Of a stretch of DNA of 64,000 bases, positions 22,585 to 53,133 are shown one piece after another. Position 1 is the stretch's first letter; every line of letters begins with the position of its first letter. This DNA comes from Niallia circulans. Lineage in GTDB: Bacteria > Bacillota > Bacilli > Bacillales > Cytobacillaceae. The position numbers were made by a program, and so were the translations under genes. Below the pieces are notes generated by a model, which worked only from the letters and a program-made list of their open reading frames with translations, searched no databases and was not told where the DNA came from. Where the stretch lies: positions 2,604,001-2,668,000 of the forward strand of contig NZ_CP026031.1 of assembly GCF_003726095.1 (NCBI RefSeq), read 5' to 3'.

Positions 22585-22641
22585 GATGCTCGCTCCTTCT
22601 TCTATCGATTATTTTAGTCTTCCTGCCTAATAGAAGCTTTT

Positions 22642-23343: not shown

Positions 23344-24151
23344 CTTCTCCGAACCATTTCTCAGATATTGATTTATACGTACCATCATCAATCATTTCTT
23401 TAAGTGCTTTATTTACCGCTTCAACTAACGTATCATTTCCTTGTCTAAACATTAAACCACTATGCGCTACATCATCAGCAGTATCGACAATTTTAACTTT
23501 TACATCAGGTTTTTGCTTTTTAAAATCTAAGAAAGATAATTTATCATTAACGGTAACATCTACTCGTTTGGCATTAAGAAGTTCAATCGCTTGATTAAAC
23601 CCATCCACTCCAACTAGCTCTGCGCCATTCGTTTTGGCGATTTCCGCATAATTACTTGTTAATGATTGTGCTGACTTTAATCCCTTCATATCTTTAAAAC
23701 TTTTCACATCTGAATCTTCTCTTGTGATAAGAACAGCAGCAGAAGAAATATAAGGATCAGAAAATGCATACTTTGCTTTTCTTTCATCATTAATCCCTAC
23801 TTGGTTCGCAATCATATCAAAACGCTTTGCATCAAGGCCTGCAAACATAGCATCCCATTGTGTTTCCTTAAATTCTGCTTTCACGCCTAAACGTTTTGCC
23901 ACTTCTTGTGAAATTTCCACATCAAATCCAGTTAACTTCCCAGAATTATCATGAAAAGTAAAGGGAGGGTATGTACCTTCCGTACCAACTATTAATGTGC
24001 CCTTATCTTTAATTTGTGCCAATAAATCAGTGTTGTTATCAGCTTTTTTATCTGCAGAATCTTTTGATCCCTTATCTGAATTGCTACCACAAGCAGCTAA
24101 TACAATGGTAAGACTTACTAATAAACTTAACAATATACTAAATTTTCTCAT
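23330..24151 (-). CDS. tcyA: Amino acid ABC transporter substrate-binding lipoprotein, TcyA-like
   Basis: 273 residues with lipoprotein signal peptide and lipobox VLAACGSN (Cys21). The SBP_bac_3 domain reads [65 protein letters not shown] and [13 protein letters not shown] [13 protein letters not shown]. These motifs are close to the cystine-binding TcyA of Bacillus as I recall it; glutamine or other polar amino acids remain possible. ATG 24151 has AAGGAGG at good distance. Confidence 0.87.
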
Positions 24152-24192
24152 ATTATTCCTCCTTATTCCGATAAGACTTGTCAGCAATAGCT

Positions 24193-24222: not shown

Positions 24223-24708
24223 AGCATTGATTCTCCTTTTTATTTTCACCAAAAGTTCTGACATTAACCATGTGGATTATATCCATTTGATACCAAAAAA
24301 AACAGGGAAACCTCTTTCTTATCCCTCCAGTCAACTTTGTTTTTAAATTACATTTTTTTATTCATTAAGCATTTAATAGTTTCTAGTTAGTAAAGCATTT
24401 AAAAGGATATTATAGTGAAATGCTTCCTAAAATATGAGTAATTGTATGAAGTTGATCGTAATTTTTAGAGAGAGAAATTAAACATAGCAAGACGGATCAA
24501 TAACTACAGTAGTACATTCTCAAACTACTGATAAGATTAGGAATCAAAGTGAAATTCGAAGTCGGAATTATTTCACTTGGAGTTTTTTTATGTGATTTCA
24601 GTGTGAGGAATTGTCGAGGTTGTGTTAAAGGAATACCTATTAAAATGATTCAAAATTAATTCAAGCTTCAATCAGCAATAATAATGCGCTAAACGGAGAT
24701 AACAATAG
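24223..24708. other. Intergenic region of about 480 bp without a recognisable gene
   Basis: No reading frame with a ribosome binding site is apparent on either strand. It contains a plus-strand terminator-like hairpin (24547-24589) that belongs to no visible gene, which hints at a lost gene or a small RNA. Confidence 0.5.
24547..24589 (+). terminator. Orphan rho-independent terminator
   Basis: AAGTGAAAT (24547-24555) and ATTTCACTT (24570-24578) form a perfect 9-bp stem with a 14-base loop, followed after GGAG by seven T on the plus strand. No plus-strand gene precedes it. Confidence 0.6.
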
Positions 24709-24735
24709 CCCCCCAATATATCTAGCTGGGGGGAT
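24709..24735 (-). terminator. G/C hairpin after the lipoprotein gene
   Basis: CCCCCCA / TGGGGGG with an 11- to 13-base loop, about 36 bp past the stop. The following stretch CTATTGTTATC is only moderately T-rich, so termination is probable but not certain. Confidence 0.55.
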
Positions 24736-24770
24736 TAAACAGAAAATGATTGCTCTGTTACTTTATTATG

Positions 24771-25307
24771 CTATTTAAGCTCCTTAACTGCATTTACAAA
24801 TTCTTCAGCCTTTGTAGAAGCACTGGCATTTACTGCAAATGGTCCATGTACTTGCACTAAAACTTGACTATTTCCTAGTGTAACGTAGCCATCTTTTTTC
24901 GCACCTTCATATTCCTTTTGAAGTGTTTCATTCATGTTCTTTAAATCATACCAATATACCTCAACGCTTACATCTTTATAATTAATTGTATCTGAACCAA
25001 TACAACATAATTTAGAAGTTTCGCTGTTTTCTTTGATTAAATTTACTTTTTTGAAATATTCCGTTAAATCGTCAAGCGTCATATCTGCAAGTGGCTTCGT
25101 TTGTGCATCCTTCCCGTTAGACTCCGAATCTATAGACGCTGGATCACTAACGTTATCTTTAGTAACCTCCTCCGTCGATTTATCTTTTGCAACAGGTGCT
25201 TTATCAGTAGTATTACTTCCCGCTTTATTTTGTGAACTGCAGGCTGCAAGTACTAGAATTAAACAAAATACTAGAAACGTTAGGTTAAATTTCTTTTTCC
25301 TCTTCAT
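24771..25307 (-). CDS. Hypothetical lipoprotein
   Basis: 178 residues. Signal peptide with lipobox VLAACSSQ (Cys23), a Ser/Thr/Lys/Asp-rich linker to about residue 70, then a small domain: PLADMTLDDLTEYFKKVNLI, SETSKLCCIGSDTINYKDVSVEVYWYDL and YVTLGNSQVLVQVHGPFAVNA. The adjacent Cys-Cys in the domain is notable for an exported protein. No family recognised. Good ribosome binding site (GGAGG). It stands alone, with flanking intergenic regions of about 280 and 460 bp. Confidence 0.85.
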   Translation of the reverse strand: MKRKKKFNLTFLVFCLILVLAACSSQNKAGSNTTDKAPVAKDKSTEEVTKDNVSDPASIDSESNGKDAQTKPLADMTLDDLTEYFKKVNLIKENSETSKLCCIGSDTINYKDVSVEVYWYDLKNMNETLQKEYEGAKKDGYVTLGNSQVLVQVHGPFAVNASASTKAEEFVNAVKELK

Positions 25308-25593
25308 AATCTGCCTCCATATCTCTTAACTTGTAAATTTGTTTGTTACTTTATAAACTCGTTATTAATATCACTAAACTTCTTTACGACTGACTGTAGC
25401 TGCATGATATAGAAAGAATGAATATTCTTTATTTTTTCTCAAAATAGCCTCTCTGATTAAGATAGAAGTAATGTTTTCCTCGAAAAGCGGTGCTCCATTG
25501 CATTAGCTAAAAAAAATTTTAGCGTTTCGACTGCTTGAAGGACTTTTACTATCATTCTCTTTGTTCATTCTACTTTGATTATCTTCAATGGGA

Positions 25594-28491
25594 TTAGGAA
25601 AACAAAGGATATGAATAATCAAATAATTGATTATTTTCTGCGATCTTTCTTTCATTCCCAACTACACATAATGATTGTTTTCCCAGAAGAGCTTTAAACA
25701 TTTCACTTAAAGATCTTAAATCATCAATTGTAGTATTTATAACCTCCTGTCTTACTTTTAGTCGTTGTTCATAAGTATTATTTATAAAATAATTTGTTTC
25801 TGCCTGTTCTCCCTTTATCCTTGCATTCATCGGGTTATCTAGATCTGCTATTGTGCCGATAATATACCTCTGCAATTCTGATCTTGGTAAATCTAAATCC
25901 ATTATAAAATCACTTGTTGTATTATAAATATCTACTGTCTCAAGCAAATTGGGGTCGCGATAAGAATAAAAAAATATATTACCATTCATATAGATGTTTA
26001 TCCCTCCACCATATGCACCACCTAAAACTCGCAAATTTCTCCATAAATAGGTTAAATTCAGTATTTTTGCTAGCACCAGCATCTGCCCGGAAAATTCATA
26101 ACCCATTTTTTTTAGATTACCGCCCTGTACTACATATAAGATGGAATTACTATTCGTAAATGCTTCCTTGCTGATATCATTATTTATCTGAAATTCAAAA
26201 GTCTCTACTTTGTTCCCATCTGGTAAATCGAAGTTTAAAAAGGCATTAGAAAACACTTTCATCGCATCCAAATCACCGGTTAATCCAACAACTAAATTTT
26301 TTCGACAAAATAGGTTATTAGCAATTCCCTTCATTTTTTGAATAAATGAGTCATACCTTTGTTCAAAATCCTTTTCCAATTTTACGAGAAATTGATAGAA
26401 AGAAATTCCTCTTAAGTGTTCATTGATATAACCTAATGCCGTTAAACTACTATTAACTCGAATAGCCGCAAACATATTACCATTACTATTTAATTGTATT
26501 TTCATATTGCTCACTAGATTGCCGATAAGCTCTTTCACTTTTTTCTTATTATCAAATTCGGTTTCAGTTAGAATATGATGAACAAGTTTCAGAGATTTTT
26601 CCATATTTTTTTCCATTGTTCTGACTTTAACCGCTACTTTATGAAGGCAGGTATCAACGCTGCTAGAGTACAAATAGTTTTCGAATGAGACTATCCCAAT
26701 TTTCATTGCAATTTCGCTTGCCAGCGCCTCACTAGTATATTCTGAAGTTCCTAATTTTCCTAACAATTCAGTAAATAATCTATAGTAGGAAATATCATCT
26801 TTTCCATTTATTGCATCGAAATAGAGATTATAGTAAACTACTTTTTTTGTATAAATATCATGGAATAAAACCTTAGAACCGTTGCATTCTATTTCCTGCA
26901 AAGGCAGATCAGCTGGTTTTGGGTCAATGTCTGACAACAGCAGAGTAGGCAATGTCTCTTTTGCTTCATCACTATCAGATATAGATTGAAATTTATTCAG
27001 TTCAGCATTCTCTTGAATTAAGGCTTGTAAATCTGCTTCTTTCATACCATCTTTAATCCTCTTCAATTTTACTTGTTCCTGTAAATATTCTATATTAGAA
27101 AGTTGCTTTGACGGCTTGCATACTACGATAGCAGATTGCTTCCCATTTAATAAGTAATTTTCAATAAACCTTTCAAAATATGGCTCGCTCAATGCAGATT
27201 TTACTGTTTCCAAACTATCTTCATATTGGAAGGCTTTAATAAGTGGTTTACCTGCAGCCCAATTGGATGCGGCGTTAATGCCATGAAATAACCCTTCTGG
27301 AAAGGTACCATAGTCTGCTTCTCTTAACTCAAATTCAGTTGATAGTATAGCAGCTTCGATTAACTTTTTATCTATCCCCTTCTCCACTAATTCTCGCAAA
27401 GTATCCTGGACAATCTTGATAAACATGTCTTTGTTTTCGGCATCCCCATTACTGCAGCAAATAGCAAAAAGCGGATATTTAAGGGAAGAATCAACTAAAC
27501 CAAAGGCATCCTTTCCTAGTTTTTCTTCCAGTAATTTTTTTCTTAAAATTGCTGAATTTCCTTCCAGCAAAATTTTATTTAAAACATTTAGAGTGATACC
27601 CAAATTTTCATCAGCTTTTTCCTCCACCTTACACGCAAAAGCTAAGAAGGTATTTTCTTCTTCTATCTCCTTTTCAGAAATCGGATACTCGCTAGTAAAT
27701 TCTTTCCGTTCTCCTTCGAAGATCTTATCAAGTGCTAAAGGCTTATTCTCTTTCCTTTCAAATTGACCAAGCACTTCATTCAGCTGCTGTAGTCTCTCTT
27801 CAATGTCCATAGCCCCATAAAGATAAAGAAGACTATTGGAAGGATGATAATAATCTCGATGAGCTTCCAAAAGCTTTTCATAAGTTAAGTTTGTAATCTC
27901 CTTCGGATCTCCGCCAGAAAAATTGGCATGAGGAAAAGAAGGATATAAAGCTTTAAATAAGGAGTGTATAAAACGTTGCTGTGGTGAAGATAAGGTACCT
28001 TTCATTTCGTTATAAACAATTCCTTTGTATATAAGCTCATTCGTTTCCTCACTATAAGCTAAATGCCATCCCTCTTGAAGGAAAATTTCCTTTTGTTCAT
28101 GTAACTTCGGAAAAAAAACCGCATCTAAAAATACATCCATCATATTCGAAAAATCTTTCTTATTTACACTTGCAAGAGAAAACAGTGTTTTATCAGGATA
28201 AGTAGAAGCATTTAAATATGTTTTCATCGATCCTTTCATCAATTCAACTATAGGTTCTTTAACTGGATATTTCTTCGAACCACTAAGTACACAATGCTCC
28301 AAAATATGAAAAACACCTGTATCATCCATTGCTGGTGTACGGAAACCAATCGAAAATCCCTGATGCTCATCATCATTATTTACCCATATTACCTTTGCGC
28401 CAGTTCCTACATGCGTCATTATATAGACATTTCCGTTAATTTCTTGTATATATTCTTTCTGTTCTATACGAAAACCGTTATATTCCTCCAA
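25594..28491 (-). CDS. M16C-family zinc metallopeptidase (PreP/insulinase-like)
   Basis: 965 residues, four-domain pitrilysin architecture. Inverted zinc motif HxxEH as HILEH (about 61-65) in DDTGVFHILEHCVLSGS, and the distal zinc-ligand Glu in VYNEMKGTLSSP, both in PreP/Cym1 form. The M16C domain lies in the middle. Such proteases close like a clam and degrade free peptides of 10-65 residues. I start at TTG 28491: GGAGGG stands five to six bases before it, and the product then matches the family start. The GTG at 28536 has no ribosome binding site. It lies downstream of the ABC exporter pair on the same strand, which suggests peptide substrates; co-transcription is inferred. Confidence 0.88.
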   Translation of the reverse strand: MEEYNGFRIEQKEYIQEINGNVYIMTHVGTGAKVIWVNNDDEHQGFSIGFRTPAMDDTGVFHILEHCVLSGSKKYPVKEPIVELMKGSMKTYLNASTYPDKTLFSLASVNKKDFSNMMDVFLDAVFFPKLHEQKEIFLQEGWHLAYSEETNELIYKGIVYNEMKGTLSSPQQRFIHSLFKALYPSFPHANFSGGDPKEITNLTYEKLLEAHRDYYHPSNSLLYLYGAMDIEERLQQLNEVLGQFERKENKPLALDKIFEGERKEFTSEYPISEKEIEEENTFLAFACKVEEKADENLGITLNVLNKILLEGNSAILRKKLLEEKLGKDAFGLVDSSLKYPLFAICCSNGDAENKDMFIKIVQDTLRELVEKGIDKKLIEAAILSTEFELREADYGTFPEGLFHGINAASNWAAGKPLIKAFQYEDSLETVKSALSEPYFERFIENYLLNGKQSAIVVCKPSKQLSNIEYLQEQVKLKRIKDGMKEADLQALIQENAELNKFQSISDSDEAKETLPTLLLSDIDPKPADLPLQEIECNGSKVLFHDIYTKKVVYYNLYFDAINGKDDISYYRLFTELLGKLGTSEYTSEALASEIAMKIGIVSFENYLYSSSVDTCLHKVAVKVRTMEKNMEKSLKLVHHILTETEFDNKKKVKELIGNLVSNMKIQLNSNGNMFAAIRVNSSLTALGYINEHLRGISFYQFLVKLEKDFEQRYDSFIQKMKGIANNLFCRKNLVVGLTGDLDAMKVFSNAFLNFDLPDGNKVETFEFQINNDISKEAFTNSNSILYVVQGGNLKKMGYEFSGQMLVLAKILNLTYLWRNLRVLGGAYGGGINIYMNGNIFFYSYRDPNLLETVDIYNTTSDFIMDLDLPRSELQRYIIGTIADLDNPMNARIKGEQAETNYFINNTYEQRLKVRQEVINTTIDDLRSLSEMFKALLGKQSLCVVGNERKIAENNQLFDYSYPLFS

Positions 28492-28650
28492 TGTTAGCCC
28501 TCCAGTTGTTATAAAGTCTAATTTCCATACGTCCACTTGTATCTAGAATTCACTTGTTCTTAAATAATAAAGTTATTCCACCTGCAATAATCCATAGTTC
28601 TTATTAAGTCTTTTTTTTTCTAAAATTCTTTATCTATCAAACTATCCACT

Positions 28651-30372
28651 TCACTTATGCAAATCAACAAAGCCTTTATAATAGGCATTTTTCTCACACA
28701 AATCATTATGTGTTCCCTCTGCTACAACATGGCCGTTATCAATAATGACAATGTTATCTGCACCTTGAACGGATTGTAAGTTATGTGCTATCTTAATAAT
28801 CGTCTTCCCATCCATTAAATTAGCTAGCGCTTCATTGATGTATCGTTCAGATTTTGTATCTAAATTGCTAGTTGCCTCGTCTAAAAGTAAATAATCAGGG
28901 TTGAGAATGAGAGCTCTTGCAATAGCAATCCTCTGCTTTTGACCACCCGACAGCCTGCTTCCTGCTTCCCCAACATCTGTATCAAAACCACTTGGACAGC
29001 TTTGAATAAATTCATAGGCATTTGCAAGTGTTGCAGCTCTGATCAGTTCCTTCTCGGATACTTCTCTTCTAGCTCCATAAAGGATATTGTCCCTAATAGT
29101 ACCAGATAGAATAGGACTACTTTGTGAAACATACACCATTGTCCTTCTCCATTCATCTAGATGGATATCTTTTACGTCCTGCGAGCCGAACATAATTGAT
29201 CCTGCTGTCGGTTCATAATATCTGGTAATGAGATTGAATATGGTTGATTTTCCAGCACCATTCCCACCTAAAATGGCAGTTACCTTTCCTTTTGGAACAG
29301 TAAAGCTTACATCATGTAAGATTTGGTGCTCATTATAGCCGAAGGCCACATTTTTAAAAATAATATCTTCTTCGCTTGGTCCAATTGCGATTTTTCTCTT
29401 GACCTGTTCTTCCTCTGCTTCCATGAGATTTGCAATGTTTGCAGTGGCGCCTTGTGCTCCCTTAATTGTCTGAAATTGCGACAATAGTTCATATAAGCCT
29501 GGCAGCATAATCATTGATAGATTGTTAAAAGTAACTAAATCACTCGTTTTAAACGTCCCATTCCTAACATAATAGGCTCCTACTGCAAAAATAATAATCA
29601 TAGAGAATGTAGTTATTAGGTTCCCAACTACTGCTTGAATTCCCCCCATAAAGGTTTTATATAGATCTGCCCTATACCTCGTTTTTATTGCTTCAATTCC
29701 ATCATTCAGCTCCTCATCCTCTGTAGCTTGAGCTTTTATATGCTTCATATTAATAAGATGTTCTGAAAAGTAATCTGTCATTACACCATAGGTATGAAAG
29801 ATCTTATATTGGATATTAAATTGAAGACGACCGATAAGCCAAAATATGAAAAATACCAAAGGAATCATTAATGCATACGTAAATGTAAGGGTTGGATTTA
29901 ATGAATACATACCGACTAAAGCTCCGAGAAAACTATATAGAGAAGCAAAAATACGAGTTACGATACTTGTTGCATCACTTGCAGTAGCTGCATCGTTCGT
30001 TATTCTTGAAACCAAGCCGCCCTGCTTTTTCTCGTTAACCACCTTCATCGTTGTTTTTAGAATTTTGTTTAAAAGAACAAATCTTAAACTACGATTTACT
30101 TTTTCATTTCCAAAAAGTTCTGCTCCACTTTGAACCATTCTCGCCAAAATAGTGGCAATTGTCAGTCCGACAAAAACATAAATTGCATTATCTTCAAAAA
30201 ATTTGCCTATTTGTATTTTAGTTTGAATTGGAGCTAGTTTTAAAGCTATCCATGTTAGGGATAATCCCGATAAAAATGATAAAATATATAAAATCCATGG
30301 TATTTTTATTTTTGCAAATATCTTCAAAAATGGTTTCCACTTCATTTTTAACGTTGTTTTAGAACTACTCAT
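28651..30372 (-). CDS. ABC exporter half-transporter B (TM plus ATPase)
   Basis: 573 residues: six membrane helices (to about 330) and an ATPase domain with Walker A GGNGAGKST, signature LSGGQKQRIAIARAL, Walker B YLLLDEATSNLD and H-loop KIAHNLQ. The switch histidine is thus present. It belongs to the MsbA/LmrA/BmrCD-like type IV exporters. I start at ATG 30372: GAGGAG lies seven bases upstream; the ATG at 30390 lies before that site. It begins almost on the stop of the partner gene, so a heterodimer is likely. Substrate unknown; the peptidase next door suggests peptides. Confidence 0.9.
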   Translation of the reverse strand: MSSSKTTLKMKWKPFLKIFAKIKIPWILYILSFLSGLSLTWIALKLAPIQTKIQIGKFFEDNAIYVFVGLTIATILARMVQSGAELFGNEKVNRSLRFVLLNKILKTTMKVVNEKKQGGLVSRITNDAATASDATSIVTRIFASLYSFLGALVGMYSLNPTLTFTYALMIPLVFFIFWLIGRLQFNIQYKIFHTYGVMTDYFSEHLINMKHIKAQATEDEELNDGIEAIKTRYRADLYKTFMGGIQAVVGNLITTFSMIIIFAVGAYYVRNGTFKTSDLVTFNNLSMIMLPGLYELLSQFQTIKGAQGATANIANLMEAEEEQVKRKIAIGPSEEDIIFKNVAFGYNEHQILHDVSFTVPKGKVTAILGGNGAGKSTIFNLITRYYEPTAGSIMFGSQDVKDIHLDEWRRTMVYVSQSSPILSGTIRDNILYGARREVSEKELIRAATLANAYEFIQSCPSGFDTDVGEAGSRLSGGQKQRIAIARALILNPDYLLLDEATSNLDTKSERYINEALANLMDGKTIIKIAHNLQSVQGADNIVIIDNGHVVAEGTHNDLCEKNAYYKGFVDLHK

Positions 30373-30376
30373 CATC

Positions 30377-32149
30377 TCACTCCTCTCCATGCTTCTCCAT
30401 CATTGCGCGATAATAGGCATTTGCTTCTATCAATTCTTCATGCGTACCGAAAGCAGAAACTCTTCCACTTTCTAAAACTATTATTTCATCAGCAACTTGC
30501 AAGGACTTTGAATCATGAGTGACCATGATGACAGTTCTCCCCTTCATTAAATTTTTCAGTCCAGTTAAAACCTGGTCTGCTGTATTAGCATCCAAATTTG
30601 CAGTTGCTTCATCCAGCAAAAGATATTTCGGGTCTTTCAAAATAGCTCTCGCAATTGCAAGCCGTTGTTTTTGCCCTCCCGAAAGATTATTCCCCATAGT
30701 TCCTACCTCAGTATCCAAGCCACTCTCTAACTTTTCAATAAATTCATAGGCATTTCCGAGTTTTGCGGCTTGAATAATTTCCTCCTCCCTTATTTCACGT
30801 TTGATTCCATAAAGAAGGTTTTCTCTTATCGTACCGGACATGATCCCACTATCTTGGGAAACATATGCAATGGATTGACGATAATGTTTGAGAGAAAAGC
30901 TATTAATATTTTGGTTTCCTAGTGTTATCTCACCCTCTAAAGGAGCATAAAACCTATCTATAAGATTTAAAATGGTTGTTTTTCCACAACCGCTTAAACC
31001 AACTAATGCCGTTATATTTCCTGCTTTAAAATTGCATGAAATATCTTTTAAGACTTGCTGTTCTCCAAAATTGAAGGAAACATTATGAAGCATAATATCT
31101 CCCTGAAGCAGATCATCATCTTTTCCTGTATAATATTCTTCTTCTGCTTGCTCTAAAAGTCTGCTGATTCTATCTGTGGCTCCTTGTGCTGTTTTAATCT
31201 GCGTCCAAATTCCTGCTTTCGAATTAATAATAGTCGTTAAATTTCCCACATAGAGAAAATACGCTGTCCACATTGTCGTAGTAATCTCACCATTATTCAA
31301 AAGGGTTATCCCAATTACTACAATCAACACTGTCTGTCCCAATGTGACAAGGGAAAGTGCTGGAGTAAAAAGTATGCCAATCATCCCATTGGATATACTC
31401 GCCTTATATAATTGATCAATTGCAGCTTTTCCCCGCTCATTTTCTTTGTTTTCTTTAGCAAAAGATTTAATCAGCGGTACATTTGACACTAATTCAGCTA
31501 GCACTTGGGTTAGTCTGGATACTCTATACTGCTCTTTTCTTTTTGTTTTAAATTGTAATCTTCCAAAAACGATGCTAATTATAATTAGAATTGGTATAAC
31601 TACTAATATCGAATACATCAATTTAATGTCATAATTGGCAAGCTGTTTTGCCGTTTCATAGGTGAGATAAAGTGTTGTAATTTCTCCAATCAACGTCTGC
31701 ATAACTAAACTGCTTATTATTCCTGTATCAGTTGTAATACGGCTTACCATCTCTCTTGGTTTACTTTTATCAAAAAACTCGACTGGAAGGCACAACATTT
31801 TTTTCCAAAGCATTTTTCTTAGATTCATATCAATTTTGGCCTCAGCAATTCCTTGTGCTATACTAGACAGCTGCCCAATCAAGCTTGAAAGAATCGTTGC
31901 GGACACTAACGACGTAACAAGGGTAACACTAACATTGCCGTTAAATAATTCTGCAGTATATGAGGGCACCATAATGCCAATTTTTACTGCAAACATCATG
32001 ATAAGGATATAGGCAAGTATCCATACATACGGAAGGTGTGATTTCCAGATTAGCTTTATAAACCTTTTCCAAATTCCTTTATCTAAATTCCCCGGCTTTT
32101 TCTCAGTAACTATAGCCATCTTTTTATTCGTCTTTAAAGGTACTGACAC
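30377..32149 (-). CDS. ABC exporter half-transporter A (TM plus ATPase)
   Basis: 590 residues: cytosolic head (to about 35), six membrane helices, Walker A GLSGCGKTT, signature LSGGQKQRLAIARAI, Walker B YLLLDEATANLD, H-loop VTHDSKS. It differs clearly from its partner, so it is not a recent duplicate. GTG start at 32149 after GGGGGG with 8-base spacing. It is the first intact gene after the sigma-54 promoter at 32500-32516, about 350 bp away. Confidence 0.9.
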   Translation of the reverse strand: MSVPLKTNKKMAIVTEKKPGNLDKGIWKRFIKLIWKSHLPYVWILAYILIMMFAVKIGIMVPSYTAELFNGNVSVTLVTSLVSATILSSLIGQLSSIAQGIAEAKIDMNLRKMLWKKMLCLPVEFFDKSKPREMVSRITTDTGIISSLVMQTLIGEITTLYLTYETAKQLANYDIKLMYSILVVIPILIIISIVFGRLQFKTKRKEQYRVSRLTQVLAELVSNVPLIKSFAKENKENERGKAAIDQLYKASISNGMIGILFTPALSLVTLGQTVLIVVIGITLLNNGEITTTMWTAYFLYVGNLTTIINSKAGIWTQIKTAQGATDRISRLLEQAEEEYYTGKDDDLLQGDIMLHNVSFNFGEQQVLKDISCNFKAGNITALVGLSGCGKTTILNLIDRFYAPLEGEITLGNQNINSFSLKHYRQSIAYVSQDSGIMSGTIRENLLYGIKREIREEEIIQAAKLGNAYEFIEKLESGLDTEVGTMGNNLSGGQKQRLAIARAILKDPKYLLLDEATANLDANTADQVLTGLKNLMKGRTVIMVTHDSKSLQVADEIIVLESGRVSAFGTHEELIEANAYYRAMMEKHGEE

Positions 32150-32160
32150 TCGATTATCCC

Positions 32161-32470
32161 CCCAACTTTACCAAAAAAGCATTTTAGAAGATGAATTAAA
32201 AATTATTTTTTTACAGTTTCATTCCTTGCTGTAAGGAGTGGCCAAAGATCAAAGAAATAACTCCATTTTCTTCTAATTTTTCCAGTGATTATTGATTAAA
32301 AAGACATCCTGCACTTCAAAAGAGATTCTCTAATAATATTTTTACTCTGTTTTAATTTACCGCCTTCTACTCCTAAACCCGTTATAACTTTTCCAACATT
32401 ACTTCATGACGAAGGTAATAGCTACTGCAAAGCTATTCGTCGATTCCTTTAGATACTTCCTCCTCCTTGT
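32161..32470 (-). pseudogene. Shattered reading frame between a sigma-54 promoter and the exporter genes
   Basis: Downstream of the sigma-54 promoter an ideal ribosome binding site, AAGGAGGAGG (about 32468-32459), is followed by GTA, not a start codon, then SKGIDE and a stop. Protein-like pieces continue in shifting frames: NSFAVAITFVMK, then SNVGKVITGLGVEGGKLKQS and KNIIRESLLKCRMSF, then SLEKLEENGVISLIFGHSLQ. I read this as a decayed gene of about 90-100 codons. The pieces faintly recall the NifX/dinitrogenase-cofactor fold, but that is a guess. It could instead be untranslated RNA. Confidence 0.4.
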
Positions 32471-32499
32471 AAATTACTACCTCTTTATTAATATATCAA

Positions 32500-32516
32500 T
32501 GCAATAATTGTGCCAA
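32500..32516 (-). promoter_or_regulatory. Sigma-54 (-24/-12) promoter of the exporter/peptidase unit
   Basis: Minus strand TTGGCACAATTATTGCAT: -24 TGGCAC and -12 TTGCAT, GG to GC separated by 10 bp. This fits the RpoN consensus TGGCAC-N5-TTGCW exactly. Confidence 0.9.
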
Positions 32517-32631
32517 ATTTTATAATAAACAAAAAATTCTCAATATTACACCTTGATGATTATATGTATTTAATATTACCTATGTGTTTTTTAAGTAAAT
32601 TTTGTAAAGCTATAAAAAATTCAGCTGTCAC

Positions 32632-32671
32632 TTTCTCAACCATGAAAGAAGTGATTATCAATTATGAGAAA
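32632..32671. promoter_or_regulatory. Candidate enhancer (UAS) for the sigma-54 activator, copy 2
   Basis: TTTCTCA-N4-TGA (32632-32645), 12 bp, TCA-N4-TGAGAAA (32658-32671). The geometry, arms and spacing equal the copy at 37096-37135. It lies 116-171 bp upstream of the -24 element, in the usual range for enhancer-binding proteins. Confidence 0.8.
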
Positions 32672-32746
32672 TACTGAAATTAGAAGCTTTAATAATGAAT
32701 ACATATTCCGAATTAAGCGGTGGTTTTATTGCTTATTCTTAAAATA

Positions 32747-32794
32747 AAACACCCAAAAAGTTAGACTTTCTTCTCTAACATTTTGGGTGCAGTA
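32747..32794 (-). terminator. Terminator after the CNPC thioredoxin gene region
   Basis: Minus strand CACCCAAAA-T-GTTAGA and TCTAAC-T-TTTTGGGTG form a stem of about 15 pairs with an 8-base loop, followed by TTTTATTTT. It is 141 bp past the thioredoxin stop and separates the two sigma-54 units. Confidence 0.85.
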
Positions 32795-32934
32795 TATCAC
32801 TGTATAAATAACTCGAATAATTGATTAAAAACTTATTCAAGTTGGGATTTTCGAATATTTACAAGCGCAGCGACCACATGAACTGCTAAAATAACTCGTA
32901 CTCCTATATCTATTAACAACTAAACAATACAACT

Positions 32935-33249
32935 TTAGTAGTAGTATTTTGAGATTTTTTCTTTTATTTCTTCCTCTCTCAATACTCCTATATGACGTTC
33001 TACCTCTTCCCCATCTTTCATGAAGACGATAGTAGGTACTGCCATAATGCCAAATTTCTCACTCATTTCTTTTTCATCAGTAATATTAACTTTAACAGTA
33101 TTAATAAAAGGTAAATCTTTATCCACTTCCTCTAAAATCACTGCTAAAATCTTACATGGATTACATGTATCTGAATAAAAATCAACTAACGCAAATCCCT
33201 CACTAGTTAATTGATCAAAATTGTTATTATTTCCTTTTCTGATTGCCAT
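32935..33249 (-). CDS. Thioredoxin with CNPC active site
   Basis: 104 residues, complete thioredoxin fold. The active site is Cys29-Asn-Pro-Cys32 in DFYSDTCNPCKIL, where ordinary thioredoxin has WCGPC; the Trp is replaced by Thr. The cis-Pro loop is MAVPTIVF and the glycine before the last helix is retained (HIGVLREEE). The altered dipeptide and missing Trp should change redox potential and partner choice. It follows the trigger-factor-like gene by 22 bp and probably shares its transcript. GGAGGG precedes the ATG. Confidence 0.9.
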   Translation of the reverse strand: MAIRKGNNNNFDQLTSEGFALVDFYSDTCNPCKILAVILEEVDKDLPFINTVKVNITDEKEMSEKFGIMAVPTIVFMKDGEEVERHIGVLREEEIKEKISKYYY

Positions 33250-33271
33250 AATCGTCCCTCCATTTTCACTT

Positions 33272-34213
33272 TTATTTTACTAATAATTTATTTTGTTCAA
33301 AAGCTTCTTTAAAAAAGCCAGCTATCTTTTCATGTGCATAAGCTGAATAGGAATAGGTTAAATAGTTGAAATATGGGAATAACTTCTTTGATTCACTTAA
33401 AGAATAGTTTTTATAATATTCGCTGCTTTCAAATGATGATTCATAGGTAGATTCATTGAAAGTTACATTATCATCTTGTGCAATCGACAACCCTATTAGC
33501 GCTCTTTTAAGGTAATTTGGGTATCTATTATTTTTATATTCTACCTCAAATGCTGCCAATGAGGGCTCGCCAATTCTTTGCCCAATTTCCATCTCCGTCA
33601 TTTCCTCTAAAACTTTCCCTTCTTCTTGACTAAGAAAAGTCATCTTAGAAACATCGCCTTCAAATAGTCGATTGATGTCCTCTTTGCTAATTTCGAACTC
33701 TGAAATTTCCATTACCCTATCGATAACTTTTTCAGCTACTTCAGACACCTGCTGACTTACGATTGTGTCAAATAAATAATCTTTGTAATCTTCTACAGTT
33801 AAAACGCCGTCAATATTCTCTTCTCTGATTAATTCATCTGTTAACTCTGGTATTTTTTTTCTTTCAATCTTCGTTACTATTGTTTCAATAATATCTCCGT
33901 TTAATTTAATTAACTCCATCTGATTAGGAATCATATTGACAATTTGCTCTTCAAACGAGCTATTAAATAAATTGGACCCTACTACCACTGGGAGACTTTT
34001 CTTATTGAATTTTTCAGTAGCACTTGCCAAATTTAACGTAACTAGATCTCCTTTTTTTACATAATCAGCTACTTCTTCATATTCTGAATACTTATTAACT
34101 ACTTTAGATAAAGATTGGATAATTTTGTTCTTTACCTCAAGTGCTTGTGTAGGTAAATCAAATATTTCAATTGTTCTGAAATCTTCAACTTTAATTATTT
34201 TTGATCTAAACAA
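33272..34213 (-). CDS. Trigger-factor-like FKBP/chaperone protein lacking the ribosome-binding domain
   Basis: 313 residues. Residues about 50-115 resemble the FKBP-type domain of trigger factor: DYVKKGDLVTLNL, LPVVVGSNLFNSSFEEQIVNMIPNQMELIKL. The C-terminal helical arms follow, with IPELTDELIREENIDGVLTVEDYKDYL and EISEFEISKEDINRL, again trigger-factor-like. The N-terminal ribosome-docking domain (GFRxGKxP) is absent. It is thus probably a dedicated folding factor for particular clients. TTG start at 34213; an in-frame TGA stands two codons upstream, so no earlier start is possible. The FKBP aromatic residues are poorly kept, so prolyl isomerase activity is uncertain. Confidence 0.75.
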   Translation of the reverse strand: MFRSKIIKVEDFRTIEIFDLPTQALEVKNKIIQSLSKVVNKYSEYEEVADYVKKGDLVTLNLASATEKFNKKSLPVVVGSNLFNSSFEEQIVNMIPNQMELIKLNGDIIETIVTKIERKKIPELTDELIREENIDGVLTVEDYKDYLFDTIVSQQVSEVAEKVIDRVMEISEFEISKEDINRLFEGDVSKMTFLSQEEGKVLEEMTEMEIGQRIGEPSLAAFEVEYKNNRYPNYLKRALIGLSIAQDDNVTFNESTYESSFESSEYYKNYSLSESKKLFPYFNYLTYSYSAYAHEKIAGFFKEAFEQNKLLVK

Positions 34214-34294
34214 AAATCAACACATCCTTATAAGTTTTTCGAAGGTTTCAATCTATTAGTAAGAATGAAACTATCGTAAAATGATAAATTCACT

Positions 34295-35770
34295 TTATTT
34301 CGAATCATCAAAACAAAAATCATATTTATCTAGTTTTCTGTATAATGTCGCAAGGGAAATTTGTAATTCCTCTGCCACTTTCCCTTTATCTTTCTTATAA
34401 TCTTCTAAAACAAAATAACTTTGTAGTATCTTTTTCTCATATTGAGCAATCATTTGTTCCAAACTTAATCGCACATTTTGCATACCAGCTGTTTCTTGAA
34501 GATAATCTGGTAAATCATGAAAACCAATGATATCCGATTCGGCCATATTGACCATATATTCTATGGCATTTTCCAATTGTCTTATATTCCCTGGCCATTC
34601 ATATTGAAGGAACCATTTCTCTAAATTAGGATCGAGCTTCATTTGTTCCTTGTTTAAAAGCTGACAATGTTTCCGAATAAAATATTTACAAAATAGAGTA
34701 ATGTCTGATTGTCTCTCACGGAGTGGCATCGTATATAATGGAATAACATTCAAACGGTAATACAAATCTTCTCTGAATCTTCCTTCTTGTAGCATGCCTT
34801 CCAAATTTCGATGTGTTGCTGCAATGACTCTTACATCTATTGGTATTGAGGACTTTCCACCAATACGTTCAATTTTTCTTTCTTGTAAGACACGTAATAA
34901 CTTTGGCTGTAAAGAAATTGGCATATCCCCTATTTCATCTAAGAATATTGTCCCCTTGTCCGCCAGTTCAAACTTTCCCTTTTTTCCTTCTTTTTTCGAA
35001 CCTGTAAAGGAGCCTCCTTCATAACCAAACAATTCACTTTCAAGCAAGGTTTCTGGAATTGCAGCACAATTTATTGCTATAAATTGATGATTCTTCCTAT
35101 AGCTTTCATTATGAATGGCACGTGCTATTAATTCCTTTCCAGTACCGCTCTCTCCTCTGATTAATACAGTGGAAAGGCTGTTACTTACTTTCTTAGCTTT
35201 TTGAATTAGATTCTTTAGGCCTGTTTCATTACCAATAATACTTCTAAAGTTAACTTCATCACTATTTATTAGTCTATTATGATAAGGTGCTTGTAGCATA
35301 TTTAATTTTGTTGCCAGTTCCTTGCTGAAATCGATTAATTCGCACATGTAATTTTCAAGATTCAATCTTATTTTTTCTTTGTGTTCATTTGAAAAACCTA
35401 TAATGCTAATAACTCCTATCACACTATCTTGATCTTTTATGGGATAGGCAATCGCTCCATATCCAACACATTCATTATTATATTTGCAATTTTTACAGCC
35501 AAGTTCACTAATCTTTGAATCATAAATAACATAAGGCTCTAGATTATTCAAAACTCTTTGAACTACTACATTATTTCTTCCATCACCAAAACTATTTTGA
35601 TAGCGCCCTGTTCCGCTTATTATTTCGCCATTTTCATCATGCACCACTACATCAAATTTCAGAGATTCAGAGAATTTCTGTACCATTTCGTCAAATCCCA
35701 TTTCGTGTCTGACTTCATACTCAACGTTCTTTACAATATTTATTAAATGCGAAAGTCTTTCTAATTTCAC
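34295..35770 (-). CDS. Sigma-54-dependent activator with Cys-cluster sensor domain
   Basis: 491 residues. Residues 1-150 are a GAF/PAS-like sensor with a cysteine cluster GCKNCKYNNECVGYG (Cys92, Cys95, Cys101), reminiscent of metal- or redox-sensing and of the PrdR/CdaR-type domains. AAA+ domain: Walker A GESGTGKE (206-213), sigma-54 contact loop GSFTGS (253-258, canonical GAFTGA), Walker B GTIFLDEIGDM. C-terminal Fis-type helix-turn-helix KGKVAEELQISLATLYRKLDKY. GTG start after AAAGGGGTG. It follows the lyase gene by 39 bp and is likely autoregulated from the same promoter. Confidence 0.93.
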   Translation of the reverse strand: MKLERLSHLINIVKNVEYEVRHEMGFDEMVQKFSESLKFDVVVHDENGEIISGTGRYQNSFGDGRNNVVVQRVLNNLEPYVIYDSKISELGCKNCKYNNECVGYGAIAYPIKDQDSVIGVISIIGFSNEHKEKIRLNLENYMCELIDFSKELATKLNMLQAPYHNRLINSDEVNFRSIIGNETGLKNLIQKAKKVSNSLSTVLIRGESGTGKELIARAIHNESYRKNHQFIAINCAAIPETLLESELFGYEGGSFTGSKKEGKKGKFELADKGTIFLDEIGDMPISLQPKLLRVLQERKIERIGGKSSIPIDVRVIAATHRNLEGMLQEGRFREDLYYRLNVIPLYTMPLRERQSDITLFCKYFIRKHCQLLNKEQMKLDPNLEKWFLQYEWPGNIRQLENAIEYMVNMAESDIIGFHDLPDYLQETAGMQNVRLSLEQMIAQYEKKILQSYFVLEDYKKDKGKVAEELQISLATLYRKLDKYDFCFDDSK

Positions 35771-35809
35771 CTTTTCACACCCCTTTAGTATTTAACTACT
35801 TGTAAAATA

Positions 35810-36982
35810 CTATATCTGTGATAGTGCTTGGTGTAAATCAGAAATTATATCTTCTGTCTCCTCTAAACCAGTAGATAATCGAATTAAGCCGTCAGTAATA
35901 TTACATTTTAATTTCTCCATCTGCGGCATAGAAGCATGAGTCATAGAGGCTGGATGTTGAACAAGTGTTTCAGGATCACCTAAACTAAAAGAAATTAGTG
36001 CCAATTGCAAAGAATCAATAAATTTCTTTGCCGCACAATATCCCCCTTTCACTTCAAACGATAACATTCCCCCCATATCTTTCATTTGCGCTTTAGCAAG
36101 TGCATGTTGTGGATGTGAAGTTAATCCAGGATAATATACTTTTTCAATAGAAGGATGAGTTTCCAGGAATTTTGCAATCATCATTGCACTTTGGCAATGC
36201 TGCTTCATTCTTACGCCTAGTGTTTTCAAACCTCTATCAATAAGAAAGGAGTCCCAGGAATTCAATACTTGACCTAAATCTCCAACTATATTTTGATGAA
36301 TAAATTGGATGGACTCTAAATCTCCAATTATAAAACCTGCAATTACATCTCCATGGCCATTCAAATACTTAGTAGCACTATGAACAACCAAATCTGCTCC
36401 CATTTTCAAAGGCTGTTGTAAATAGGGAGTCATAAAAGTATTATCAATAATGACTTTAATATTATATGAGTGTGCGAGATCAGCTAATTCACGAATATTT
36501 AAGATTGTGAGACAAGGGTTTGATGGTGTTTCGATAAATAAAACTTTTGTGTTAATCTTTATTGCCTGCTCGACTTCTCGTAAATTAGTACAGTCAACAA
36601 AATCTGTTTCTATACCAAATCTTGGAGCCAAAGTTCTTAGAAACTTATAACTTCCTCCATAAACATCTTTCGTGCAAATTACATGGTCCCCACATTGAAG
36701 AAATGCTAATAAGGTGCTTGATATCGCCGCCATCCCACTACTAACCCCAAGAGCCGCCTCCCCCCTTTCCAAAGAGGCAATTTTTTTTTGGAGATTATTT
36801 GTTGTTGGATTTCCATATCTTCCGTAATAGGTTCCTTTAATTTCACCTGAAACAGTTGCTATTGCAGTTTCTGTATCAGGAAAGGAATACCCAACAGCAG
36901 GAATAATCTTCGTTACAATAGGACCTGTTTTCTTATGATCTGGCTGACCGTGAATTAAGGTTGTGCAATCTTTCCAATTCAT
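35810..36982 (-). CDS. PLP-dependent Cys/Met metabolism enzyme (methionine gamma-lyase / cystathionine gamma-synthase-like)
   Basis: 390 residues, fold type I PLP enzyme. PLP lysine Lys205 in VVHSATKYLNGHGDVIAG, cofactor-binding YGRYGNPT and SSGMAAI, C-terminal THASMPQMEKLKCNITDGLIRLSTGLE typical of the MGL/CGL group. The position of Cys116, important for methionine gamma-lyase specificity, is Gly110 here (DVYGGSYKF), so gamma-elimination of another substrate such as homocysteine or cystathionine is equally possible. Preceded by AAAGGAG and, 30-45 bp upstream, a perfect sigma-54 promoter, which is unusual for this family in Bacillus. Confidence 0.9.
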   Translation of the reverse strand: MNWKDCTTLIHGQPDHKKTGPIVTKIIPAVGYSFPDTETAIATVSGEIKGTYYGRYGNPTTNNLQKKIASLERGEAALGVSSGMAAISSTLLAFLQCGDHVICTKDVYGGSYKFLRTLAPRFGIETDFVDCTNLREVEQAIKINTKVLFIETPSNPCLTILNIRELADLAHSYNIKVIIDNTFMTPYLQQPLKMGADLVVHSATKYLNGHGDVIAGFIIGDLESIQFIHQNIVGDLGQVLNSWDSFLIDRGLKTLGVRMKQHCQSAMMIAKFLETHPSIEKVYYPGLTSHPQHALAKAQMKDMGGMLSFEVKGGYCAAKKFIDSLQLALISFSLGDPETLVQHPASMTHASMPQMEKLKCNITDGLIRLSTGLEETEDIISDLHQALSQI

Positions 36983-37009
36983 ATATTAATCTCCTTTCAT
37001 TAATTATCC

Positions 37010-37027
37010 TTGCAATATCCGTGCCAA
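37010..37027 (-). promoter_or_regulatory. Sigma-54 (-24/-12) promoter of the lyase-activator unit
   Basis: Minus strand TTGGCACGGATATTGCAA matches the RpoN consensus YTGGCACGR-N3-TTGCW. It is 28 bp upstream of the lyase start. Confidence 0.93.
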
Positions 37028-37095
37028 TATTTTTAAATTTTTATTTTTTTAAATTCCCAGTAGAACTAGATATTTCATTGGCAGTTTTATTACTC

Positions 37096-37135
37096 TTTCT
37101 CATGCTTGAAAAGCACTTATGTCAACCATGAGAAA
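37096..37135. promoter_or_regulatory. Candidate enhancer (UAS) for the sigma-54 activator, copy 1
   Basis: TTTCTCATGCTTGA (37096-37109), 12 bp, TCAACCATGAGAAA (37122-37135). The second arm is nearly the exact reverse complement of the first. It lies 69-108 bp upstream of the -24 element. Confidence 0.82.
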
Positions 37136-37793
37136 AATGATATCAACTAAGACAAATTTCTTTTGGATCAGATAACAACGAAAATGCTGCATCGATTATT
37201 TTTGAGAGGAACTATAAAGAAGAAAGTAAATTTGTCTTTGTAGTTGGTGCACATTTATTTTGGATATCCTCATGCTTTTTCTGTTGTTTCATATGCGAAA
37301 AAGACACCAACAAAGCAAAGTTGGCCAATGAACAGGGGCACTCAAAAGATTTTAGGAAAAGATGAAACGGAAGAAAAAACTAAACAATCATATAAAATGT
37401 TTTGTTCTCTCCCTATTAACAATAAGAAGAAAATTCAACACTTGCATTTAAAACACATTAAGCCATGGATTCATTAAAAATAATGTAACTGCTATTGTAC
37501 TTAAATAGAATATTAAAATAATAAAACAAAATAATATTACTCTTGAAAATTTTAATTATTTCAGTTATATTGATAGAAATATTTATACCGAATAGGCCGA
37601 TTAACCAATATACTAGAAAATTAAATTATAAAATTTCCAATCCGATTACGGTGATATTTATTTATAAGAAATTCAAAATTTAAAAGCAATTTCTCTTTTC
37701 AAGAGCATTTTTTTGAAAACAAAAGTCAGATTATTCAATATTTTTTAACAGTTACAGATAAGTGATAAAAATTTTTTTGAATAGGTGAAAACT
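37136..37793. other. Long leader between the lyase promoter and rpoN
   Basis: About 660 bp without a supported gene. A 77-codon frame at 37244-37477 has a TTG start with no ribosome binding site and unconvincing composition. From 37480 on, the sequence is extremely AT-rich. The rpoN promoter must be here; no clear -35/-10 pair stands out. Confidence 0.5.
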
Positions 37794-39116
37794 ATGCAAA
37801 TAGGATTTGATTTATCCCAATCTCAAACATTGAAACTTAAATTAACACCTGAACTTAAACAAGCAATTGACATATTGCAGTACTCATCACAGGAGTTAGT
37901 TGATTTTATTCAATTGAAGACTATTGAGAATCCCATCTTAGAAATATCAGAAAGTTCAATTGAAAATATATTCAACTGTCATCACACCCCTTCCAATTAT
38001 TCTTACAACAAAGATACAGAATATGATCCTTTTGATTTTTATTCAGATACAAGAATCTCATTAGAGGAATATTTAATCGAACAAATTATGTTATTAAAAA
38101 ATTTATCCCCTCTTCAAATAAAAATATTCAAATTTCTTATTGGAAATTTGAATACAGATGGCTACTTAGAAATCAATTCAGCTGATGCCTCTTATTATTT
38201 ATCTGTAAGCGAAAATGAAGTAAATAGGATAATTAACCTTTTACAAACACTTGAACCTATTGGTGTGGGGGCAAGAAATCTGATGGACTGCTTATTAATT
38301 CAAATGAGAGCAAATAAACAAAACCAATCACTAGCTTATTCTATTGTAGAAAATCACTTAGAAGATTTAGCTGCCAAACGCTATCCTAAGTTGGCCAAGA
38401 TACTACATGTCAGCGTAAATGAAATTCAAAACGCCGCAGATTACATAGCTACTCTTGACCCAAAACCGTGTAGACAATTTTTTGAATGTAAAAATCTCAC
38501 ACAATATGTTATACCTGACATAATTATTGAAAATGTTAATGGCAAATTAATTATTAAAATCAACGATACATTCTTACCTACTGTATCAATCAACGAGTAT
38601 TATAAAAATAGTTTAAATAATCATGAGTCCAGTGAGTATCTAAAGAAGAAATATCAAGATGCTATGCTCTTGCTTAACAGTCTTACCCATAGAAAACAAA
38701 CCCTTTTCCAAGTCAGCAATGCCATTATCGAAATACAAAATGAGTTCTTTCAATTTGGGTTAGGTCGCTTGAGGCCTATGAAATTGAAAGATATCGCAGA
38801 GAAAACTGGTTTTCATGAATCAACAATCAGTAGAGTGACAAGTAATAAATTTATTAAAACTAACCACGGACTATATTTATTAAAAAACTTATTTACAACA
38901 GGCATTGATGGTTTAAACAGCGAATCAGAATCATCCTTTGACATTAAGAAAAAAATGGAAAAACTCATTAGAGAAGAAAATAAACAAAAACCTTTTTCAG
39001 ATCAGCAAATAGTTAGATTACTAGAGAACGAAGGGATCCTCCTCGCTCGTCGTACTGTTACAAAGTATCGCGTTGAAATGGGAATTCCAAGTTCATCTAA
39101 ACGAAAAAGATATTAG
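37794..39116 (+). CDS. rpoN: RNA polymerase sigma-54 factor (RpoN/SigL)
   Basis: 440 residues. Region I (MQIGFDLSQSQTLKLKLTPELKQAIDILQYSSQEL) is the Gln/Leu-rich activator-interacting part. The core-binding region follows, and then the -12-contacting helix-turn-helix MKLKDIAEKTGFHESTISRVTSNKF. The RpoN box ARRTVTKYRVEMG reads -24. Sigma-54 needs an AAA+ activator to open promoters; one is encoded divergently 1.9 kb away, and two matching promoters lie nearby. I start at ATG 37794 with AGGTGA upstream; the GTG at 37785 is part of that site. Confidence 0.95.
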   Translation: MQIGFDLSQSQTLKLKLTPELKQAIDILQYSSQELVDFIQLKTIENPILEISESSIENIFNCHHTPSNYSYNKDTEYDPFDFYSDTRISLEEYLIEQIMLLKNLSPLQIKIFKFLIGNLNTDGYLEINSADASYYLSVSENEVNRIINLLQTLEPIGVGARNLMDCLLIQMRANKQNQSLAYSIVENHLEDLAAKRYPKLAKILHVSVNEIQNAADYIATLDPKPCRQFFECKNLTQYVIPDIIIENVNGKLIIKINDTFLPTVSINEYYKNSLNNHESSEYLKKKYQDAMLLLNSLTHRKQTLFQVSNAIIEIQNEFFQFGLGRLRPMKLKDIAEKTGFHESTISRVTSNKFIKTNHGLYLLKNLFTTGIDGLNSESESSFDIKKKMEKLIREENKQKPFSDQQIVRLLENEGILLARRTVTKYRVEMGIPSSSKRKRY

Positions 39117-39173
39117 TTTTTTTCTTTTGCTTAAAAGACTGCATTCTTTTGAGCTCCTTTATATAAATATAAG

Positions 39174-39222
39174 AAGTGAATCTAAAGAAAGAGCCTTTTT
39201 AGTGAGGATTCATCACTTTTTT
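39174..39222 (+). terminator. Probable terminator of rpoN
   Basis: AAGTGAATC and GATTCATCACTT pair with a 3-base bulge, followed by TTTTTT. It is about 60 bp past the rpoN stop. Confidence 0.5.
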
Positions 39223-39350
39223 GCCAACATACAGCTCCTTGCTAATAAATCCTTTATTGATTGAGACTTCACAACTAGGATTGAGTTTTCTTTCATATTT
39301 TTTCTGCTTAAAGTCGTTTTACCAAAGTGTTGTATCTTAGAAATAAGTGC

Positions 39351-39381
39351 AAAAAAAGAGTGCTGCCTCTTATCAGCACTC
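39351..39381 (-). terminator. Terminator after the papain-like amidase gene
   Basis: AAGAGTGCTG / CAGCACTCTT, 10-bp perfect stem with an 8-base loop, followed by TTTTT on the minus strand. Confidence 0.85.
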
Positions 39382-39445
39382 TTACAACTATCCGGTCCCA
39401 TTAAACATTCACTTACATTAGAAAATGATAATAAATAATAATGGC

Positions 39446-53072: not shown

Positions 53073-53133
53073 AAAAAAAGAAAAGGATAGATAAAGCATC
53101 CTTCATATGCTAAATCTATCCTTTTTCTTTTAC
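53073..53133. terminator. Bidirectional terminator between hxlB and the convergent gene
   Basis: GAAAAGGATAGAT and ATCTATCCTTTTTC form a stem of about 14 bp with a loop of about 20 bases that itself can pair (AGCAT/ATGCT). A and T runs flank both sides. Confidence 0.85.

Follow-up and report, generated by a model that had tools for sequence, protein, structure and literature searches.

Paired palindromic elements upstream of two sigma-54 promoters suggest a self-contained, possibly portable regulon in Niallia circulans

Which regulator acts through the long palindromic element that precedes two sigma-54 promoters in Niallia circulans, and does the locus form a unit? We analyzed a 64,000-nucleotide stretch of this genome (the window; RefSeq assembly GCF_003726095.1, contig NZ_CP026031.1, genome positions 2604001-2668000), which carries two predicted operons, A and B, one behind each promoter, and a gene for a bacterial enhancer-binding protein (bEBP) at 34295-35770. 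The elements are very likely the upstream activating sequences of this bEBP, which would drive both operons together with sigma-54. Taken as a whole, the locus is most likely a sigma-54 regulon that contains all its own parts, may be portable, and serves the metabolism of sulfur amino acids or thiols.

Two perfect 40-bp elements precede two consensus sigma-54 promoters

The features at the center of this question are the following, in window coordinates:

37011-37026, minus strand: sigma-54 promoter A, TGGCACGGATATTGCA, perfect match to TGGCAYN5TTGCW
32500-32515, minus strand: sigma-54 promoter B, TGGCACAATTATTGCA, perfect match to TGGCAYN5TTGCW
37096-37135: candidate enhancer A, two tandem palindromes (37096-37113 and 37118-37135) offset by 22 bp; exact pattern match, motif conserved at ortholog promoters
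32632-32671: candidate enhancer B, two tandem palindromes (32632-32649 and 32654-32671) offset by 22 bp; exact pattern match, motif conserved at ortholog promoters

An earlier note on this DNA had claimed that both -24/-12 promoters are preceded by the pattern TTTCTCA-N4-TGA-N12-TCA-N4-TGAGAAA, and the window scan bore this out with exact matches at 32632-32671 and 37096-37135. Allowing up to three mismatches, shuffles of the window give an expectation of 0.02 matches. Nor did the pattern turn out to be frequent at random places: the whole genome (5,175,203 bases, one contig) holds it at only two places at up to three mismatches, both of them perfect. As the reversed pattern, our control, occurs at three genome places at the same tolerance, the count at three mismatches is uninformative alone; what goes beyond chance is that both matches are perfect and lie upstream of promoters. 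The promoters themselves stand out as well. Both keep the GG and GC dinucleotides of TGGCAY-N5-TTGCW intact, and they are the only two of 14 perfect TGGCAYN5TTGCW sites in the genome that lie outside open reading frames (ORFs) of at least 100 amino acids; the palindrome score is 9 at both promoters versus 7 or less at the other 12 perfect sites, all within ORFs. Sigma-54-like sites with up to two mismatches number 502 in the genome versus 178 in the control; the search for further targets covered the 14 perfect sites, so that weaker targets may be missed.

Each element consists of two imperfect palindromes, TCTCA-N4-TGAGA, with starts 22 bp apart. The outer halves are perfect (TTTCTCA and TGAGAAA) and the inner halves degenerate, which gives the look of a single bipartite 40-bp element, and the element reads best as two tandem TCTCA-N4-TGAGA palindromes. 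Because 22 bp is about two helical turns, two dimers would sit side by side on one face of the helix. Only paired palindromes stand out in the genome: the single 18-bp palindrome TTTCTCA-N4-TGAGAAA shows no enrichment at up to two mismatches (61 in the genome versus 63 for the reversed control) and was rejected as a genome-wide regulon marker.

Aligned with one of them inverted, elements A and B agree at 30 of 40 bases, against 26 when both are read in the same direction. This is the 40-base block that the two 230-bp upstream regions have in common (30/40 with one inverted), and 1000 shuffles reach 28 at most; in a second control, random pairs of window pieces reached at least 30 four times in 1000 draws (maximum 40), where about 4.8 self-pair draws are expected. 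Could the likeness have arisen by chance between AT-rich intergenic regions? The pattern was defined after the fact from these two sites, the regions upstream of both promoters are 70-75% A+T, and the reversed control has its own three matches. Yet none of 1000 shuffles reached 30 of 40 identical bases, both matches are perfect, and the motif predicts sites in other genomes, with no failure at ortholog promoters (below), so we regard chance as hardly credible.

A recent duplication, which the earlier note had dismissed because the spacers differ, is unlikely, since the 60-bp flanks of the elements are unlike in direct orientation (20/60 and 14/60). The claimed difference held less well for the elements themselves, which are 30/40 alike as inverted copies, with 8 of the 12 central bases agreeing in the inverted alignment by hand count. 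An old inverted duplication may still be their origin.

The activator encoded between the promoters

34295-35770, minus strand: sigma-54 activator (bEBP), with an N-terminal CX2CX5C and weak GAF likeness, an AAA+ domain with a GSFTGS loop, and a Fis-type helix-turn-helix

The 491-residue protein matches Pfam Sigma54_activat (8.6e-73) and HTH_8 (4.3e-5). Among 12 genome matches to the Sigma54_activat domain, four are strong, and of these four the window activator alone has a GAFTGA-like loop. Its sensor domain appears GAF-like: weak GAF matches were found in 16/16 family members at E of 5 or below (best 2.3e-4), with the window activator's own match at 0.032, below the curated cut-off, and GAF_2 weakly matched 15/16 members (best 2.2e-7). 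For the window activator's sensor domain the best match is Diacid_rec (7.4e-4, below its cut-off), and the top profile match among solved structures is Nlh1 (E 0.059), which we take to be a GAF sensor. No PAS match was found in the window activator. The CX2CX5C motif is invariant in the alignment of all 16 members. The recognition helix reads ISLATLYRKL in the window activator versus ISLSTLYRKL in the 13 orthologs seen (L193 not among them); among the other listed helices, ISLATLYRKL occurs only in L040.

Activator-like proteins that lack a GAFTGA loop are encoded at genome positions 335795, 3520798 and 1063022 (L222, L223, L246), in a genus mostly without sigma-54. One of them adjoins acetoin-dehydrogenase-like genes and is presumably AcoR-like. 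They may have become activators for a different sigma factor, or they may be relics.

The motif recurs at promoters near activator orthologs

We defined orthologs as activator relatives above 400 bits, which are 47-58% identical and occur in seven other family genomes (193 searched, including its own) and seven other genomes of the order sample (397 searched, including its own); 14 neighbourhoods were taken, and weaker full-length matches (37-44%, e.g., G060, G011, G129) were left aside. The motif TCTCA-N4-TGAGA was read from the window alone and then scored at the ortholog promoters. These were sigma-54-like sites with at most one mismatch, of which 27 were kept from the 14 loci; a prior rule excluded any site that fell within an ORF, had no ORF start in the next 400 bp downstream, or lay no more than 210 bp from a locus end. 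One of the excluded sites, L037 at 7087, had a good palindrome. A Scopulibacillus protein (44%, L040), the best match of the named-genome scan among the matches listed, was left out because its only sigma-54-like site with at most one mismatch lies 6.7 kb away.

The summed best score at the 27 promoters was 219 of 270 versus 177.0 ± 3.4 in 300 shuffles, and 21 of the 27 scored at least 8 of 10, where shuffles average 6.6. The real half-site ranked first of 30 permutations (next 200), and among gap lengths from 0 to 12 (13 lengths) only a gap of 4 stood out (next 193). As orthologous promoters are related, we also scored the 19 left after removal of similar ones, which gave 154 versus 124.2 ± 2.9, a value reached by none of 1000 shuffles. 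The pairing is conserved too: a second site (score of at least 6) lies 21-23 bp from the best site at 13 of the 19 promoters, against at most 4 in any other 3-bp class. By comparison, 66 promoters near other activators (loci of up to 45% GC) showed little excess, at 435 versus 427.3 ± 5.3.

The ortholog neighbourhoods hold many sigma-54-like promoters together with sulfur amino acid genes. At L192 and L193, loci of another family, the gene for a C-S lyase 62-63% identical to the window's stands behind a perfect sigma-54 promoter, with the activator ortholog as the next gene. L192 has a pair of score-8 palindromes at an offset of 20 bp; in L193 the better palindrome scores 9, and the other, 20 bp away, is weaker (score 7). 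When ten proteins were picked from five ortholog loci, three passed family cut-offs (a PatB C-S lyase, a D-cysteate sulfo-lyase/D-cysteine desulfhydrase and a thioredoxin reductase), gamma-type C-S lyases, a cystine-type binding protein and a sulfide-quinone-reductase-like protein fell below theirs, and one had no match. Against a plasmid collection, the activator matched at 51% over residues 178-482 in two plasmids (E 1e-80 or better).

From these sequence comparisons, the regulator of both elements is very probably the product of 34295-35770. The earlier note's proposal of a regulon under this one activator thus gains support from the motif at 21/27 ortholog promoters and from the sole GAFTGA-like loop. 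That the paired sites instead belong to another regulator encoded elsewhere, and merely lie upstream of both promoters, seems improbable. The binding assignment draws on sequence, and single sites (up to two mismatches) are scattered through the genome at control frequency; on the other hand, the motif travels with the activator orthologs in other genera and families, promoters near other activators lack a comparable excess, the spacing between the sites and the sigma-54 promoters is that of an enhancer, and a GAFTGA-like loop is lacking in the other three strong AAA+ candidates.

Several observations nevertheless weigh against assigning the elements to this activator and its sulfur-related role. 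Its loop is GSFTGS and not GAFTGA; orthologs vary among GSFTGS, GAFTGS and GAFTGA. Six of the 27 ortholog promoters score just 7, near the shuffle average, and the control promoters lie 1.5 standard deviations above their own shuffles, with 4 of 66 scoring 9 or 10 (L012, L013, L029 and L051). The operon B genes have no known sulfur link. Finally, the identical geometry claimed earlier holds inside the element and fails towards the promoter: the element center lies 89.5 bp upstream of TGGCA at one promoter and 136.5 bp at the other, a difference of 47 bp or about 4.5 helical turns, which places the sites at 78.5/100.5 versus 125.5/147.5 bp, about half a helical turn out of phase. Ortholog sites are phased, with a period near 10.5 bp (R 0.84, 15 sites, Rayleigh statistic uncorrected for relatedness), whereas the window's two promoters have no common phase.

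At the ortholog loci (L033-L039, L187-L193), palindromes prefer distances of about 71, 92, 113 and 135 bp from the -24 element.

The whole 40 bp also forms an imperfect palindrome, and the elements might be read as terminators or other hairpins. One structure bears on this directly:

32749-32790, minus strand: terminator-like hairpin of operon A, between operon A and enhancer B; -22.8 kcal/mol, z -5.25, followed by a T-rich stretch

The outer arms TTTCTCA and TGAGAAA are complementary, two of the high-scoring control palindromes (L012 and L013, both perfect) look like terminator hairpins, and a T6 run stands on the minus strand 12 bases past element B. However, neither element has a T run directly after it on either strand, 26 bp separate the arms, element A stands where two genes diverge and no terminator is needed, and operon A has the strong hairpin of its own listed above. 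Neither element is in the list of the terminator consensus scan, whose five sites do not include the hairpin at 32749-32790 either. We consider a hairpin role very improbable.

Operons A and B and a model for their control

The predicted operons comprise the following genes, apart from the activator gene, which belongs to operon A:

35810-36982, minus strand: Cys/Met-metabolism pyridoxal-phosphate enzyme (gamma-type C-S lyase), first gene of operon A; Pfam 6.2e-141
33272-34213, minus strand: trigger-factor-like protein, operon A; weak NCBIfam match (1.1e-8), below cut-off
32935-33249, minus strand: thioredoxin-like protein (CNPC), last gene of operon A; Pfam Thioredoxin 2.1e-19
30377-32149, minus strand: ABC exporter subunit, first gene of operon B; Pfam ABC_tran, ABC_membrane
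28651-30390, minus strand: ABC exporter subunit, operon B; Pfam ABC_tran, ABC_membrane
25594-28536, minus strand: M16C (PreP-type) metallopeptidase, operon B; Pfam M16C_assoc 1.5e-54, PreP_C 1.1e-46

The PDB chains closest to the lyase are methionine gamma-lyases, and its NCBIfam methionine gamma-lyase score of 454.8 bits falls short of the 549.7 cut-off for membership. For the trigger-factor-like protein, no relative was found at E 1e-10 or better in the 396 other genomes of the order or at E 0.001 in the plasmid collection. We estimate that the coding start of operon A lies about 17 bp past the expected transcription start and that operon B has a leader of about 340 nucleotides; the region 20000-42000 gave no Rfam match at gathering score.

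Within the operon B leader (32150-32490) stands a strong ribosome-binding-like site, AAGGAGGAGG, with no intact ORF directly behind it. The open stretches in several frames of this leader could be a decayed small gene.

Sensor domain features and ortholog neighbourhoods together make a sulfur amino acid, thiol or redox signal the most likely input. Such a signal would activate the CX2CX5C-bearing GAF-like sensor, whereupon the protein would assemble on the paired sites, each element offering two predicted TCTCA-N4-TGAGA dimer sites 22 bp apart on the same helix face. By looping, the activator would then reach the sigma-54 RNA polymerase poised at both -24/-12 promoters and bring about their opening. 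Operon A (C-S lyase, activator, trigger-factor-like protein, thioredoxin) and operon B (two ABC exporter subunits, M16C peptidase) would be induced together, with positive autoregulation of the activator via operon A. Sigma-54 would be supplied by the divergent neighbour gene 37785-39116, which would make the 15-kb segment a self-contained regulon.

The sigma-54 gene lies on the same accessory segment

37785-39116, plus strand: rpoN/sigL, divergent from operon A; TIGR02395 424.8 bits, cut-off 277.35
24303-39429: 15.1-kb accessory segment with all promoters, elements, operons A and B, activator and rpoN, delimited by blastn of the window against three relatives

Two findings go beyond the earlier note: the gene for sigma-54 is a direct neighbour, and the complete set sits on a stretch of DNA that relatives lack. 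The sigma-54 DNA-binding domain has one match in the genome, at this rpoN, and sigma-54 is present in 2 of 13 genus genomes. The segment is missing in all three informative relatives, where its flanks stand 39, 43 and 153 bases apart (G167, G166 and G175, respectively); identity to the window is 94-95% in long blocks for G167 and mostly 77-87% for G166 and G175, and a fourth relative was uninformative, its contig ending too early. Of the 13 genus genomes, one has the activator (at E 1e-90 or better) and one has the M16C peptidase (at E 1e-30 or better). In the order sample, RpoN matched best (47-49%) in genus g90 of family f30, and four of the activator orthologs (57-58%), the top scorers among those seen, come from there as well; this RpoN search sample of 397 genomes may not include the seven family genomes with activator orthologs.

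Was the segment gained, or is it ancestral and lost in the relatives? For ancestry speak a base composition that overlaps the flanks (29.6-35.6% GC in 2.5-kb windows versus 32.7-38.9%), the fact that no integrase or transposase was noticed among the segment's listed ORFs, and activator orthologs in other genera of the same family. Loss is nonetheless unlikely, though it keeps a real share of the probability: 11 of the 13 genus genomes are without sigma-54, the other holder's rpoN is 38% identical and sits in a different kind of locus with a LevR-like activator, the best RpoN and activator matches lie in another family, and none of the informative relatives has the segment. The low occurrence of sigma-54, the missing segment and the g90 matches together favour gain as a unit, at identities that are low and with activator orthologs elsewhere in its own family. 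We lean towards a scenario in which the sigma factor, its sole working activator and both enhancers and promoters entered the genus as one portable 15-kb unit; sigma-54, usually a global factor, would then be devoted to the local switching of a single function in sulfur/thiol and peptide handling.

Genome G172 (L224, L225) carries another compact sigma-54 locus, of a different kind: there, sigma-54 lies by a LevR-like activator with an intact GAFTGA and several perfect consensus sites.

Relation to known sigma-54 systems

In Clostridioides difficile, CdsR and SigL control cdsB, a gene of sulfur amino acid breakdown; the upstream region that cdsB requires for expression with cysteine present contains a pair of inverted repeats, one at -179 to -190 and the other at -200 to -211, an offset of 21 bp (PMC5767170). 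The window system resembles this one as a sigma-54 activator tied to sulfur amino acids with paired repeats at nearly equal spacing (21 versus 22 bp; the likeness is one of spacing). Unlike CdsR, which in that account has 591 residues, a PAS domain and cdsB as target, the window activator has 491 residues, is GAF-like and has other targets; with no PAS match and a weak GAF likeness it does not belong to the CdsR regulon, and no gene of operon A or B was named cysteine desulfidase CdsB among the matches shown. For Clostridium, another study describes an MdeR - mdeA-metT regulon with predicted sigma-54 control of methionine catabolism, and gives MdeR and PrdR sites in Clostridiales as inverted TGT/ACA with a 10-12-bp spacer (PMC6615313). 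The window sites, TCTCA-N4-TGAGA, differ from those of MdeR, and the common theme is a predicted sigma-54 control of sulfur amino acid catabolism. PrdR (NF041552) is the best NCBIfam match of the window activator at 402 bits; this lies under the 795-bit cut-off, and the PrdR sites, as described there, are again TGT/ACA (PMC6615313).

Single-activator sigma-54 systems have been described in Lactobacillus plantarum and Chlamydia trachomatis (PMC3162934), and the window set is like them in having one sigma-54 and one activator, unlike Lactobacillus plantarum in its targets, whose theme there is a mannose phosphotransferase system (PMC3162934). An activator gene between two target promoters recalls the SoxR-type layout of Bacillus thuringiensis, whose activator differs by having a PAS domain (PMC4428206). 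What is less usual about the present locus is that it comes as a single accessory unit and brings its own sigma factor. Among the open-access papers listed in our searches, none dealt with this activator clade or motif.

For a sigma-54 activator clade tied by gene context to sulfur amino acid breakdown, our analysis yields a motif together with a rule for its spacing and a list of targets. If one sigma-54, one activator and two promoters do make up a closed system here, the locus would offer a clean natural test of the minimal needs of enhancer-dependent transcription, and of how sigma-54 control spreads into genomes without sigma-54.

Other observations in the window

Amino-acid ABC transporter genes at 21850-24187, just outside the segment, are like the transporters near activator orthologs, and no sigma-54 site with at most one mismatch was found at 21850-24187. 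Further along, the protein encoded at 53133-54035 has a tail very rich in serine and cysteine.

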